From Pseudomonas sp. ADAK18 (lineage in GTDB: Bacteria > Pseudomonadota > Gammaproteobacteria > Pseudomonadales > Pseudomonadaceae), in NCBI RefSeq assembly GCF_012935695.1, contig NZ_CP052859.1, forward strand, positions 5,001-69,000: DNA of 64,000 nucleotides. Reading direction: 5' to 3'. Shown one piece after another: positions 17,319 to 22,877 of the stretch (its first letter is position 1; each line of letters opens with the position of its first letter). The translations under genes and the position numbers were made by a program. The notes under the pieces were generated by a model that was not told the origin of the DNA, did not search any database, and saw only the letters and a list, made by a program, of their open reading frames with translations.

Positions 17319-20300
17319 ATGAAAAATATAACAATTGTCGATAAGGCAACAGGAGCGGCAACGGAACATACGTTTGGCAATGCCAGCCTGAAGGGCACAA
17401 GCATTGTCAAACTACCCGTTGGGCCTGAAAGCGTTCAGTCCTTTCAGCAGTCTGGCCAGAACTTGGTGGTAACTCTGAAGTCTGGAGAAATCGTCACTAT
17501 TCAGAACTTTTTTGTGGTGGGTGCTGACGGTGCGGCTAACCAGTTGGTACTTGAAAGTGCCGATGGAACCTTGTTGTTAGGCAACTATTCCTCGCCCTAT
17601 TCAGGTTTTACATTCAGCGAGATTTCCACACTCGACGATCTGGCCGCGGCAGGCATAGTGGCAGATAGCGCGGTACCGGACTGGGTACTCTGGGGCCTGG
17701 GCCTTCTCGCCGTGGGTGGTGCGGCGGCCGCAATCAGTGGCGGCGGTGGAGGTGGTGGCGGTGGCGGGAGCGTTACGACAGCACCGGGCGCGGCGACTGG
17801 TTTATCGGTCAGTGCCGACGGCAAGAGTGTCATCGGTAAAGGGCAACCGGGCACTACGGTGACCATCAAGGATGCTGCCGGCAATGTGGTTGGCTCCGGC
17901 CCTGTGGGCGCTGACGGTAACTTCCAGGTCAACCTGGATGTGCCGCGTACCAACGGCGAGACCCTGGAGGTCACCCTCAAGGACGCCCAGGGCAACCAGT
18001 CACCGCCCACTTCCGTGGTTGCAGGCGACACGACTGCGCCTGGCGCCCCCACCGGGTTGGCTGTTAGCGCTGATGGCGCCACCGTCAGCGGTAAGGGCGA
18101 GCCAGGTTCCACCGTCACGATCAAGGACGCCAACGGCAATGTGATCGGTACTGGCACTGTCGGTGCTGACGGTAACTTCCAGGTCCCGCTGGGCACGCCA
18201 CAAACCAATGGCGAGACGCTGCAGGTCACTCTCAAAGATACCGCTGGCAATGAATCGCCGGCTGGCACCGTCAGCGCCGGCGACACAACCGCGCCTGCCG
18301 CACCGACAGGTTTGGCCGTCAGCGCGGACGGCACCACCGTCAGCGGCAAGGGCGAACCAGGTTCAACCGTCACGATCAAGGATGCCAACGGCGCCGCTGT
18401 CGGCACTGGCACCGTCGGTGCTGACGGTAACTTCCAGGTCACATTGGAAACGCCGCAGACCAATGGCGAAACCCTGCAGGCCACCCTCAAGGATTCGGCG
18501 GGCAATGAGTCACCGGCCAGCACCGTTGTTGCCGGTGACACAACCGCGCCTGACGCGCCGACCAATCTGGCCATCAGTGGCGACGGCACCACCGTCAGCG
18601 GCAAGGGCGAGCCAGGTTCCACCGTCACTATCAAGGACGTCAACGGCAATGTAATCGGCACTGGCGCGGTCGGGGCGGACGGTAATTTCCAGACTCCGCT
18701 CACCACGCCGGTGGCCGAAGGCGAAAGCCTGCAAGTCACACTTGGCGATGCCGCTGGCAATCAATCACAGCCAGGCAATCTGGTGGTCGCTGACATCGTG
18801 ACACCGCTGGCGCCCACTAACCTGGCGGTCAGCGAAGACGGCGCGTCTCTTAGCGGTAATGGTGCGTCATCTCATGCTGTCACCATTCTCAACGATGCCA
18901 ACGAGGTGGTCGGTACCGGCACGGTAAATGATGACGGGACCTTCGCAATCGTCCTGAATGCCTTGCATATCAATGGCGAAAGACTGAGGGTGTTCCTCAA
19001 GAATTTTGCCGGCAAAGAATCCCTTCCAGGCACTGCATTCGCGGCAGATGGCGTTGCGCCTGACGCGCCTACAAACCTGGCTGTCGGGGAAGACGGCAGC
19101 ACGGTCACAGGCAAAGGCGAACCTGGGGCGATCGTTACCGTCAAGGATGCCGATGGCAACGTGATTGGCACAGGCACTGTGGGGGACGATGGCAATTTCG
19201 TCGTCACCTTGAGCACGCCTCAGGTCAACGGTGAAACGCTGGGAGTGACATTGAAGGATGCGGCGGGGAACGAGTCCGCTCCGACTACGGTAATTGCGCG
19301 CGACATTGATGATGGCGATGCTGACGCTGACGCTGACGCTGACGCTGACGCTGACGCCGACGCCGACGCCGACGCCGATGCCGATGCGGATGCCGATGCT
19401 GACGCGGATGCTGATGCTGATGCTGATGCTGATGCTGATGCTGATGCTGATGCGGATGCGGATGCGGATGCTGACGCCGACGCCGACGCTGATGCTGATG
19501 CTGATGCTGATGCGGATGCGGATGCGGATGCGGATGCGGATGCGGATGCTGACGCTGATGCTGATGCTGATGCTGATGCCGATGCCGATGCCGATGCCGA
19601 TGCCGATGCCGACGCGGATGCTGACGCGGATGCTGACGCTGACGCTGATGCGGATGCGGATGCGGATGCCGATGCCGATGCTGATGCTGATGCTGATGCT
19701 GATGCTGACGCCGACGCCGACGCCGATGCTGATGCCGATGCCGACGCGGATGCTGACGCCGACGCTGATGCTGATGCTGATGCTGATGCTGATGCCGATG
19801 CCGATGCCGATGCCGATGCCGACGCGGATGCTGACGCCGATGCCGATGCCGATGCCGATGCCGATGCCGACGCGGATGCTGACGCTGACGCTGACGCTGA
19901 TGCTGATGCTGATGCTGACGCTGACGCCGATGCGGATGCGGATGCGGATGCGGATGCGGATGCGGATGCTGACGCCGACGCCGACGCCGATGCCGACGCG
20001 GATGCTGACGCTGACGCTGACGCTGATGCGGATGCGGATGCCGATGCCGATGCCGACGCGGATGCTGACGCTGATGCTGATGCTGATGCTGATGCTGATG
20101 CCGATGCCGATGCCGATGCCGACGCGGATGCTGACGCTGATGCTGATGCGGATGCGGATGCCGATGCCGATGCCGATGCTGACGCTGACGCCGATGCTGA
20201 TGCTGATGCTGATGCTGATGCTGATGCTGATGCTGATGCGGATGCGGATGCGGATGCGGATGCTGACGCCGACGCTGATGCTGATGCTGATGCTGATGCT

Positions 20301-22877
20301 GATGCTGATGCTGATGCGGACGCCGATGCGGACGCTGACGCCGATGCCGATGCCGATGCCGATGCCGATGCCGATGCTGACGCCGATGCTGATGCTGATG
20401 CTGATGCTGATGCTGATGCTGATGCTGATGCGGATGCGGATGCTGATGCTGATGCTGATGCGGATGCGGATGCTGATGCTGATGCGGATGCGGATGCGGA
20501 TGCGGATGCGGATGCTGATGCGGACGCCGATGCTGACGCTGACGCCGATGCCGATGCCGATGCTGACGCTGACGCTGACGCCGATGCTGATGCTGATGCT
20601 GATGCTGATGCGGATGCGGATGCGGATGCGGATGCGGATGCCGACGCCGACGCCGATGCCGACGCCGACGCGGATGCTGACGCCGACGCCGACGCCGACG
20701 CCGACGCGGATGCCGACGCCGACGCGGATGCCGACGCCGACGCGGATGCCGACGCCGACGCGGATGCCGACGCCGACGCGGATGCCGACGCCGACGCCGA
20801 TGCCGACCTCGACGCCTTCGACGATCTCGCCACCGCCGAAGTAACCATCAAACCCGTCACATCCAACACCGGCCTGGCCGATATGCGTGTCTTCACCCTG
20901 CTGGGTGTCGGCGGCATCGTCCTGGGCGATCACACCAAGACCCAGGAGTTCTCGGTCACCGAGGGTTCTTCAGGCACGCTGAACCTGGAGTTTGCCCAGG
21001 CGGATCTGGTCTCGCTGCTGGGTGGCGGTTTCAGTGCCATTCTTGAGGTGAGCGATGGTGCGGGCGGCTGGTTGCCGGTTCAACAAGGCAGCAACGGTTC
21101 GGGCTTGCTCGACCTGCTGGGCCTGTTCGGCCAAAGCACCACCGCTAAAATTGAAGGGCTGGAGGCTGGGCAATATCGCTTCACCCTCAAGCTGGATCCG
21201 GGCTTGGTCAGCATTGGTGCCGGGGCTACGGCCAAGTTGAGTGTCACCAACGAAAGCCAGACCGACTTCACCGGTGTAGCGGGTCCTGATGTCGTCGGCA
21301 ACGTCATCACCGATCCAGGCTTTGAAGGCAAACCGGACGTTCCGGGTAATGGCGGACCGGTGAAGGTTCAGGTCGAAGTCGGCGGTGAGTTCGTCGATGC
21401 CGATGCCACCACCGGGACCGTGCTGCAGGGGCAATATGGTCAACTGACCATCTTCGCCAACGGCGCCTACAAGTACACACCGAATGGCGAAGTTGCCAAC
21501 ATCGGCAAAGTGGATGCCTTCGAGTATCACCTGGTCAATGGCGCAGGAGGCTCGGCGGCGGCAACCTTGTATGTGCGGATCGACAGCCCGAGTGTCGATG
21601 TCACCTGGAGCACCACCGATCCAGCGGCGCCAGGGGTGATCGCTACGGTCGCCAATGATGACCTGGGTACGGCGCAGATCGACATCGTCAACGTGGTAAG
21701 CGAAGCCGACTTGGCGGGCCTGACCTACAACCTGCCACTGATCGGTACAGGTACCGGGACCGGGGCAACGATTGTGGTTGCGGCAGACACCACCGCCAAC
21801 CTGGGAATCAGCGTCAGCGCCACCGGCCTGTCGTTACTGCCAGACACCACGGTGAACCTGCAGAAGCTGATCGATGGCGTATGGACCACGCAGCAGACCA
21901 CGACCCTGGCAACGCATACGTTCACCGGGCTGGATGCCGGTTCGTATCGACTGACCGCGTCGACCGGTTCAGTGCTGTCGCTGAGCGCGATCACGGTGGC
22001 CCAGAAACTGACCACCACCTTCCTGACCCAGTTCGTGGCCGGTGAGATGACCAATGCTACGGGCAACCTGCTGGGTGACAGCCTGTCCGGGCCGGATGTA
22101 CTCGGTTCGCCGCTGACGGTTCTCAGTGTGCTGGTCAATGGGGTGTACGTGATTCCTGGTCAGACGGGGACGAAGGTCGACGGTGAACACGGGACATTGA
22201 CCGTGTTTGCCGATGGCAAATACGTCTACACCCCGCATGCCGGGCTGGCGCTGGATGAGATTGGCCAGGTGGATAAATTCACCTACAAGCTCACCACGCC
22301 GACCGGTCAGGAAGACACGGCCGATGTGTACATCCGCATCGACTCGCCAGACCGCGACCTGGTCTGGGACGACGCGAATCCGGGTTCGCCCGCCACTGAA
22401 GGCGCCGGTTTTGCCGCTGCCAGCAGTGACGTGGTGGATCAGGCCGTATCGGGCGATGACAGTGCCGGTTCCGAAGGCAGTGCCGACGGTGACGCCAACG
22501 ACCCTGTGGTGGTTGACGACACTGACTTCACCCACGTCGGCGGTGTTGCAGGGGCGGATGGGTTGCTGTGGGAGGGTGGTGATGCAGCCATCAACCTCAC
22601 CGACCTGATCGGCAAAGTCAGCGGTGTGCAGAGCATCGACCTGAACGACGTCAGTGCGGTTGACCTGACCTTGAGCCTGGAAGACCTGGTGTCCATCACC
22701 GGCCCTGAGTCGGATCGTTTGATGATCCAGGGCGATGATCAAGACAGCGTGCACCTGACAGGCGACTGGTCTGCAGGCGTGACCCAGGTAGAGAACGGTC
22801 TGGAGTACGTGATCTACACCAGCCAGGAAGATGAGACCCATCAGCTCTGGGTACAAAGCGGCATCAGCGTGGTGTAA
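17319..22877 (+). CDS. Large BapA/LapF-like surface adhesin with poly(Asp-Ala) tract
   Basis: An 1852-residue adhesin, expected to be exported by the type I system encoded next to it and to act in attachment or biofilm. Residues 1-120 resemble the BapA/LapF prefix domain; there is no Sec signal peptide. A hydrophobic segment (121-140) and ten glycines (141-150) follow. Residues about 155-664 are six Ig-like repeats of exactly 85 residues. Residues 667-1163 are a pure (Asp-Ala)n tract with 249 Asp and 248 Ala. The C-terminal 690 residues contain two related modules ending in [13 protein letters not shown] sequence and a BapA-like C-terminus that should carry the secretion signal. No GGxGxD RTX repeats and no TAAG LapG-type site were seen. 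Naming is by domain style; orthology to LapF or BapA is not established. Confidence 0.88.
17781..19310 (+). repeat. Six tandem 255-bp Ig-like repeats
   Basis: Units begin at about 17781, 18036, 18291, 18546, 18801 and 19056, each 255 bases (85 codons). Each has the pattern APxAPTxLAVSxDGxxVSGKG, then [18 protein letters not shown] and [17 protein letters not shown]. Units 2 to 4 are nearly identical, including at DNA level. Unit 5 has diverged most ([20 protein letters not shown]). Confidence 0.9.
19317..20807 (+). repeat. GAYGCN hexanucleotide array encoding poly(Asp-Ala)
   Basis: 1491 bases made only of GAT/GAC codons alternating with GCT, GCC or GCG. GCA is never used. Runs of 3 to 8 identical hexamers are mixed with compound motifs such as GCCGACGCGGATGCTGAC. 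The last part (20706-20795) has five perfect 18-base copies of GCGGATGCCGACGCCGAC. Any gain or loss of whole hexamers keeps the reading frame, so the length should vary between strains. Confidence 0.97.

Follow-up and report, generated by a model that had tools for sequence, protein, structure and literature searches.

A pure Asp-Ala tract in a BapA-type adhesin of Pseudomonas sp. ADAK18 and its link to a candidate tract-modifying ligase

A bapA-like adhesin gene of Pseudomonas sp. ADAK18 (17319-22877, + strand, 1852 amino acids) encodes a run of almost 500 residues in which aspartate and alanine alternate. The gene lies in a stretch of 64,000 nucleotides of contig NZ_CP052859.1 (assembly GCF_012935695.1, positions 5,001 to 69,000), here called the window, whose numbering is used throughout; the loci and genomes compared with it are designated by L and G numbers. 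The locus raises the question of what such a tract is for, and whether its carboxylates stay free. A neighbouring gene codes for a helical domain without a Pfam family, here called NDOM, joined to a Mur ligase, and suggests that they may not. We consider that the tract may be both the stalk of the adhesin and a substrate of the NDOM-Mur enzyme, a reading to which we give a probability of about 0.5 from sequence comparison. The stalk role taken alone, with no claim of modification, appears highly probable.

The Asp-Ala tract

Bases 19317-20807 (+) encode 249 Asp and 248 Ala, 497 residues in all, arranged as D(AD)248 with zero substitutions over 1491 bases, as the first-pass annotation of the window had read it. 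The tract occupies residues 667-1163 of the 1852-residue frame, or 27 per cent of the adhesin, in agreement with the quarter of the protein and the 249 carboxylates given there. Tandem Repeats Finder describes the array as a 6-base unit in 247.8 copies (score 1448). The codons are mixed (GAT 172, GAC 77, GCT 105, GCC 84, GCG 59, GCA 0), so the array is pure as protein and not as DNA, and an origin by chance or as a run of one DNA unit is excluded. Runs of identical hexamers occur, and the identity of units at lag 1 is 0.504 against 0.208 expected, which indicates slippage.

An assembly artefact, the objection that the annotation itself had raised, is an unlikely source of the tract, because the genome is a single contig (6.47 Mb) and the same tract stands at the corresponding position in two further single-contig relatives, G099 and G198. 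The genome has one match to the adhesin family. In the draft relatives L031/L044, L034/L041, L042, L046, L047 and L048 there is a break or gap within the tract.

The codon GCA, absent from the 248 Ala codons of the tract, makes up 19 of the 143 in the remainder of the adhesin (binomial p 8e-16, a value that presumes independent units, which these are not). It is also scarce in other Pseudomonas tracts (15 occurrences over about ten tracts), but accounts for 14 of 187 in Sphingomonas L068. By-products of the repeat on the opposite strand are a 688-residue open frame antisense to the tract (18867-20933, - strand) and one antisense frame that reads as alternating Ser-Ala throughout.

Tract length and turnover among relatives

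The listing of the tract in homologues that had been proposed was carried out by scanning the named genome contigs with an alignment of the C-terminal adhesin region. This gave 49 loci, 12 of them with a tract and 37 without. The tract is at the same place in all 11 Pseudomonas loci of at least 55 per cent identity, among which L041 and L042 open a contig with no more than the final 9-10 tract residues, L044 has a gap of Ns and L043 is broken by a frame slip; a tract match of 380 residues was found in Sphingomonas sp. 7/4-4 (L068). The L043 tract, which comes from a draft P. fluorescens assembly, loses its reading frame and later regains it; this may reflect either an error of sequencing or an allele that is truly broken. 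Tracts in complete open reading frames (ORFs) have 256, 338, 382, 496, 840, 894 and 1514 residues, and those cut by a contig end 282, 352 and 1056.

The nearest locus, that of P. spelaei CCM 7893 (L040), is 99 per cent identical over the C-terminal protein and carries 256 tract residues. Although its flanks are about 91-93 per cent identical to those of the window as DNA (over the two longest matches), the longest hexamer block shared by the two arrays is 8 units, no longer than in run-shuffled arrays (mean 8.7, maximum 14, 200 shuffles). The array DNA has thus turned over, with the peptide unchanged.

Over 13 tracts, each scored from its outermost (DA)6 blocks inward, with odd residues at the edges excluded, 6,907 codons include five Glu (all in L050), one Gly (L049) and one compensated frame slip of four codons (L050). 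Third codon positions vary freely, and first and second positions almost never diverge. Purine-ending Ala codons are common (832 of 3,451, 24 per cent), and Glu is found at 5 of 3,451 Asp positions; tract units are not independent, and a formal p for this scarcity is not to be taken literally. Charge alone would make Glu common, so Asp appears to be kept even against Glu. The tract looks selected and not neutral.

The adhesin and its stalk

By its domain content the adhesin is a member of the BapA/Bap/LapF family, since the family model NF045619 (396.4 bits, cut-off 180) and the BapA_N model PF22783 (102 bits, cut-off 27, E 2e-29) both score over their cut-offs and the genes of a type I secretion system (T1SS) follow directly downstream. 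These encode a TolC-family outer-membrane protein (22944-24461, TIGR01844, 251 bits, cut-off 225), an LssB-type ABC transporter (24458-26641, TIGR03375, 798 bits, cut-off 693) and an HlyD-family adaptor (26638-27858, TIGR01843, 329 bits, cut-off 209), all on the + strand. The protein, likewise on the + strand, starts with a BapA_N prefix-like domain (residues 1-115, 17319-17663), followed by a hydrophobic stretch read from the sequence (VPDWVLWG..., from residue 119) with a run of ten Gly (residues 141-150; 17673-17768 together). Six immunoglobulin-like (Ig-like) Big_6 repeats precede the tract (17775-19304; PF17936 in six stretches, the best at 580-662, with repeat starts at residues 153-579), and the C-terminal adhesin region comes after it (20808-22877; family C-terminal domain, NF045619, residues 1211-1672). 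AlphaFold predicts beta domains in the C-terminal 689 residues (mean pLDDT 82). The earlier description of a T1SS-linked surface adhesin whose tract comes after Ig repeats is therefore borne out by these models and genes. No match to the RTX Ca-binding nonapeptide repeat (PF00353) was found in the adhesin at E 0.001. The tract may bind Ca, as the first-pass annotation had suggested. A LapG-type peptidase (PF06035) is encoded elsewhere in the genome (G000:C1:5755050-5755388), so that the bacterium may in addition have a Lap-type system for releasing adhesins.

The number of Ig repeats is 3-6 in the seven complete tract-bearing Pseudomonas ORFs (window, L032, L033, L040, L045, L049 and L050), 0 in Sphingomonas L068 and 11-36 in 15 complete tract-free ORFs; the frame-disrupted L043 was excluded from this count, and L084-L088 were only partly scored. 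As judged from these architectures, most of the Ig array found in related adhesins is here replaced by the tract. The stalk role already proposed for it fits, because tract-bearing ORFs have few Ig repeats and tract-free ORFs have many. Fully stretched, the tract would measure about 179 nm (497 x 0.36 nm), which is an upper bound.

NDOM and its genomic link to Asp-X tracts

The NDOM-Mur ligase gene (28783-32010, - strand) codes for 1075 amino acids as listed, the likelier start being the Met at 31947. NDOM (30091-31947, -) is toroid-like by fold match; the Mur ligase middle and C-terminal domains (28849-29868, -) have a MurF-like fold. These two domains and a P-loop place the ligase part in the Mur superfamily, its ligase motifs are conserved, and Lys, Glu and His columns are invariant in the alignment. 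The housekeeping MurF models stay below their cut-offs (TIGR01143, 249.7 against 288.6; NF010693, 256.4 against 544). Many of the invariant columns of NDOM are His, Arg or Lys. Its GH76-like Foldseek match is a fold hint only, the match list being filled mainly by the Mur part. Weak LanM and epimerase matches had brought up a LanC-like zinc enzyme, a candidate that was dropped as the candidate Cys is not conserved (Agrobacterium L169, for instance, has Ala there).

Within the genus, six of 199 genomes carry NDOM, and these same six show the tract among the 32 adhesin loci examined (out of 53 genus genomes over the adhesin-family cut-off; tracts were scored at adhesin loci only). Among the 49 loci of the scan, 45 have at least 3 kb after hlyD (L051, which has no hlyD, and L060, L061 and L082 were excluded). 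NDOM follows hlyD at 12 of 12 tract loci and at 1 of 33 tract-free loci, a 12/0 against 1/32 table that ignores kinship. In Sphingomonas L068 it begins less than 60 bases from hlyD on the same strand, and the Mur part continues in a second frame. An adhesin survey of the phylum gave a single tract among 29 fetched non-window loci (L096), and this lies in the NDOM-bearing genome G362, 1 of 13 other such genomes.

The domain is rare, being present in 14 of 398 genomes of the phylum, 2 of 337 of a second class and 5 of 350 of the class of the window; these three surveys overlap in part, and the counts include the genome itself or G499 where drawn. Fifteen strong matches were obtained in 13 other genomes, and the fetched stretch holds an Asp-X tract at five of them: Ser-Asp at L136 and L143, Asp-Ala at L139 and L145, and an Asp-Gly autotransporter at L150. 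In the plasmid collection 54 records match NDOM, and 21 of the 25 fetched loci, some of them near-duplicates, carry an Asp-X tract. The hosts of these plasmid tracts are Agrobacterium, Rhizobium, Sulfitobacter, Nitratireductor, Klebsiella aerogenes, Listeria, Staphylococcus (including an annotated SdrF) and Enterococcus. On this sequence evidence NDOM is linked genomically to Asp-X tracts in two phyla, Proteobacteria and Firmicutes. No link of NDOM or a Mur ligase to dipeptide tracts was found in print among the open-licence PMC matches listed.

Some of these loci have further features of their own. The autotransporter of L150 (5784-8954), whose Asp-Gly tract runs to 178 residues, is directly adjoined by an NDOM gene. 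Sulfitobacter sp. DSM 110093 has the same stretch of NDOM-Mur and tract adhesin on two plasmids (L171 and L184), beside condensation-domain and polyketide genes. Genome G570 codes for two more NDOM proteins of about 1620 amino acids (L137 and L138), of which L137, the one scanned for domains, carries PGA_cap and Mur ligase domains; both adjoin an alpha/beta hydrolase homologue (45-49 per cent), with no tract in view. In the window an alpha/beta hydrolase gene (27873-28766, +, PF00561) sits between the T1SS and ligase genes, with matches of 31-33 per cent in the Agrobacterium tract loci L169, L173 and L178; its product might be a candidate for removing or trimming a putative modification.

Partner enzymes and the residue between Asp

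NDOM is fused to, or precedes, exchangeable enzyme modules. Ala-dominated tracts go with a Mur ligase in the Pseudomonas clade, L068, L169/L186/L187, L173, L171/L184/L185, L139 and L145, with a separate Mur gene in Nitratireductor L174, S. simulans L175 and S. haemolyticus L188, and with ATP-grasp domains in Agrobacterium L178. Ser-dominated tracts with a GT4 glycosyltransferase are those of L143, L170, L189 and L190. Mur and ATP-grasp enzymes have unrelated folds and share ATP-driven ligation of a carboxylate to an amine.

Counted by lineage, a Mur or ATP-grasp ligase is present in 11 of 11 Ala-dominated lineages and GT4 in 4 of 6 Ser-dominated ones (Fisher p 0.006). The test covers 17 lineages with a partner enzyme, hand-grouped and treated as independent, with L143 and L170 counted separately though their glycosyltransferases are 85 per cent identical; the partnerless Ala-dominated lineages (Listeria, Enterococcus and Rhizobium BG4) and the Gly tract of L150 were left out. 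Where Ser is missing from the tract, the Asp carboxylate is the only reactive side chain left.

Known dipeptide tracts

The first-pass annotation knew of no described family with a long pure Asp-Ala stalk; this is wrong, and the tract of the window is a further member of a described group. Statements on published systems refer here to the parts covered of the papers cited. BapA of Paracoccus denitrificans, in which 891 Asp-Ala repeats lie within 2211 amino acids, is required for biofilm and predicted to be exported by a T1SS (PMC5588039); type-8 hybrid BAPs of Acinetobacter haemolyticus have 79 SD or 148 AD pairs (PMC4647330), and Listeria Lmo1799 has 226 Ala-Asp repeats (PMC8687577).

Paracoccus BapA resembles the adhesin of the window in its long pure tract between N- and C-terminal domains and in the adjoining T1SS genes. 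It differs in its proportions, and no Ig array appears in the parts of PMC5588039 covered. BapA contributes to surface hydrophobicity and runs above its calculated mass, which its authors credit to composition, with modification not excluded (PMC5588039). The A. haemolyticus proteins also combine an alternating-residue tract with Ig-type BAP features, but the tract is shorter, the C-terminal region is like that of type-1 BAPs, and no neighbouring enzyme appears in the section of PMC4647330 covered. Lmo1799 is likewise an Ala-Asp surface protein, and NDOM is the next gene at its probable homologue in our survey; unlike the adhesin of the window it is sortase-anchored and Gram-positive (PMC8687577), and no ligase partner was seen beside NDOM at that homologue.

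The likeness to staphylococcal Sdr proteins that had been pointed out holds, in that both have a dipeptide stalk. SdgA and SdgB, encoded next door to such stalks, put N-acetylglucosamine (GlcNAc) on the Ser of Ser-Asp repeats and shield the repeats from proteolysis (PMC3794999). In the window a comparable modification can only be proposed, and the tract has Ala in place of Ser and a Mur ligase in place of glycosyltransferases. The window tract contains no Ser of the Sdr/MSCRAMM Ser-Asp repeat, and the adhesin falls far below the cut-offs of the curated SdrC, SdrD, ClfA and ClfB models, with the best stretches mostly within the tract. Periscope proteins (PMC8201768) are also surface adhesins with a length-variable repeat stalk, and here too the length differs between close relatives (497 residues in the window, 256 in P. 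spelaei); their stalks are arrays of folded domains, whereas the variable part in the window is a dipeptide tract.

The ligase part of NDOM-Mur gives a fold match to the cyanophycin synthetase CphA1 (7wae and 7txv), and the CphA NCBIfam model scores 33 against a cut-off of 850. In CphA1 a Mur-ligase domain works on an Asp polymer, a likeness to the ligase of the window. CphA itself makes the polymer, unlike the window ligase as proposed.

Proposed mechanism and alternatives

The architecture, the identity of the tract, the T1SS genes, the ligase motifs and the link between NDOM and tracts are read directly from the sequence; the stalk role, the binding by NDOM, and the chemistry, timing and purpose of the modification we infer as follows. 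The tract would form a stalk, strongly acidic, probably extended and of variable length, in a BapA-type adhesin exported by the T1SS encoded just downstream, and would space the N-terminal part from the C-terminal region, standing in for most of the Ig array. Ahead of export, NDOM would bind the Asp-X chain while it is still cytoplasmic, and the MurF-like ligase domain would couple an amine (an amino acid or small peptide) to Asp side-chain carboxylates, for protease resistance, charge control or adhesion. Modification of Asp is proposed by analogy with SdgA/SdgB and their GlcNAc on Ser-Asp stalks (PMC3794999), and NDOM enzymes in general may place sugars on Ser and amide bonds on Asp. Somewhat more tentatively, at a little under even odds, we suggest a modular post-translational system of Gram-negative and Gram-positive bacteria, in which the NDOM toroid would grip Asp-X stalks and supply interchangeable catalytic modules, namely a glycosyltransferase where the stalk is Ser-Asp and a Mur or ATP-grasp ligase where it is Asp-Ala, with hundreds of Asp amide-linked per adhesin.

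Several observations weigh against modification by NDOM enzymes. The 11 Pseudomonas tract loci form one clade, the ligase gene of the window lies on the opposite strand and converges on the T1SS genes, Sphingomonas L068 and draft L047 have broken ligase frames, and the ligase region of L046 as delimited contains a stop. NDOM also occurs where no tract is seen: in Stakelama L079, where the match covers its N-terminal part only; at 10 of the 15 strong matches (L140, L144, L146 and L148 being near a contig end); at all five weak matches, two of them on short contigs; and at 4 of the 25 plasmid loci, two in Acinetobacter and two in Variovorax, one of the Variovorax matches beginning 85 bases from the record edge. 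The pairing of residue and enzyme has exceptions: a Mur ligase accompanies the Ser-Asp tract of L136, the Mur genes paired with the Ser-rich tracts of L176 and L193 are broken, the match of the S. haemolyticus L188 Mur gene is confined to the later half of the middle domain, and no ligase was found beside NDOM and tract in Listeria, Enterococcus and Rhizobium BG4.

The strongest alternative, doubtful but by no means far-fetched, is that the tract is a plain polyanionic stalk, an unmodified, charge-extended or Ca-responsive spacer, and that NDOM-Mur merely travels along or serves another surface polymer. Calcium stimulates biofilm formation in Paracoccus, whose BapA has the long tract described above (PMC5588039), and NDOM fused to PGA_cap-Mur or ATP-grasp modules is also found at loci where no tract was seen. 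Co-travel in one operon does not, however, explain a link that spans Proteobacteria and Firmicutes and export by T1SS, LPXTG anchoring and autotransporters.

A role of NDOM as a handling factor is unlikely; in that case the toroid would keep hold of the acidic chain, still unfolded, for export, and the fused enzyme would act elsewhere, for example on a cell-wall precursor. The abundance of His, Arg and Lys among its invariant columns would suit such a holder, as would its position beside tracts with no partner enzyme seen in Listeria, Enterococcus and L150, but the partner chemistry tracks the residue between Asp in most lineages, and a pure holder predicts no such relation.

Neutral repeat expansion, a slippage-made low-complexity filler with no selected function, agrees with the hexamer runs and the lag-1 identity but is very improbable, as simple filler is rejected on the codon data (third positions diverge and first and second positions hardly ever do, with Glu nearly absent despite the many purine-ending Ala codons) and as tract and NDOM co-occur.

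Significance

Modification of the tract by its neighbouring NDOM-Mur enzyme is thus the reading that we retain, at the strength given above. The tract itself is of a known kind, and the new part, as far as the papers listed go, is the link of such tracts to NDOM and its ligase. If true, decoration of stalks directed by NDOM would be a new kind of protein modification, and the idea established with SdgA/SdgB would extend from Ser-Asp to Asp-Ala stalks through a different chemistry. The link could bear on the excess apparent mass of Paracoccus BapA and on its contribution to surface hydrophobicity, both as reported in the parts of that study covered, and would help to explain the purity of such stalks.

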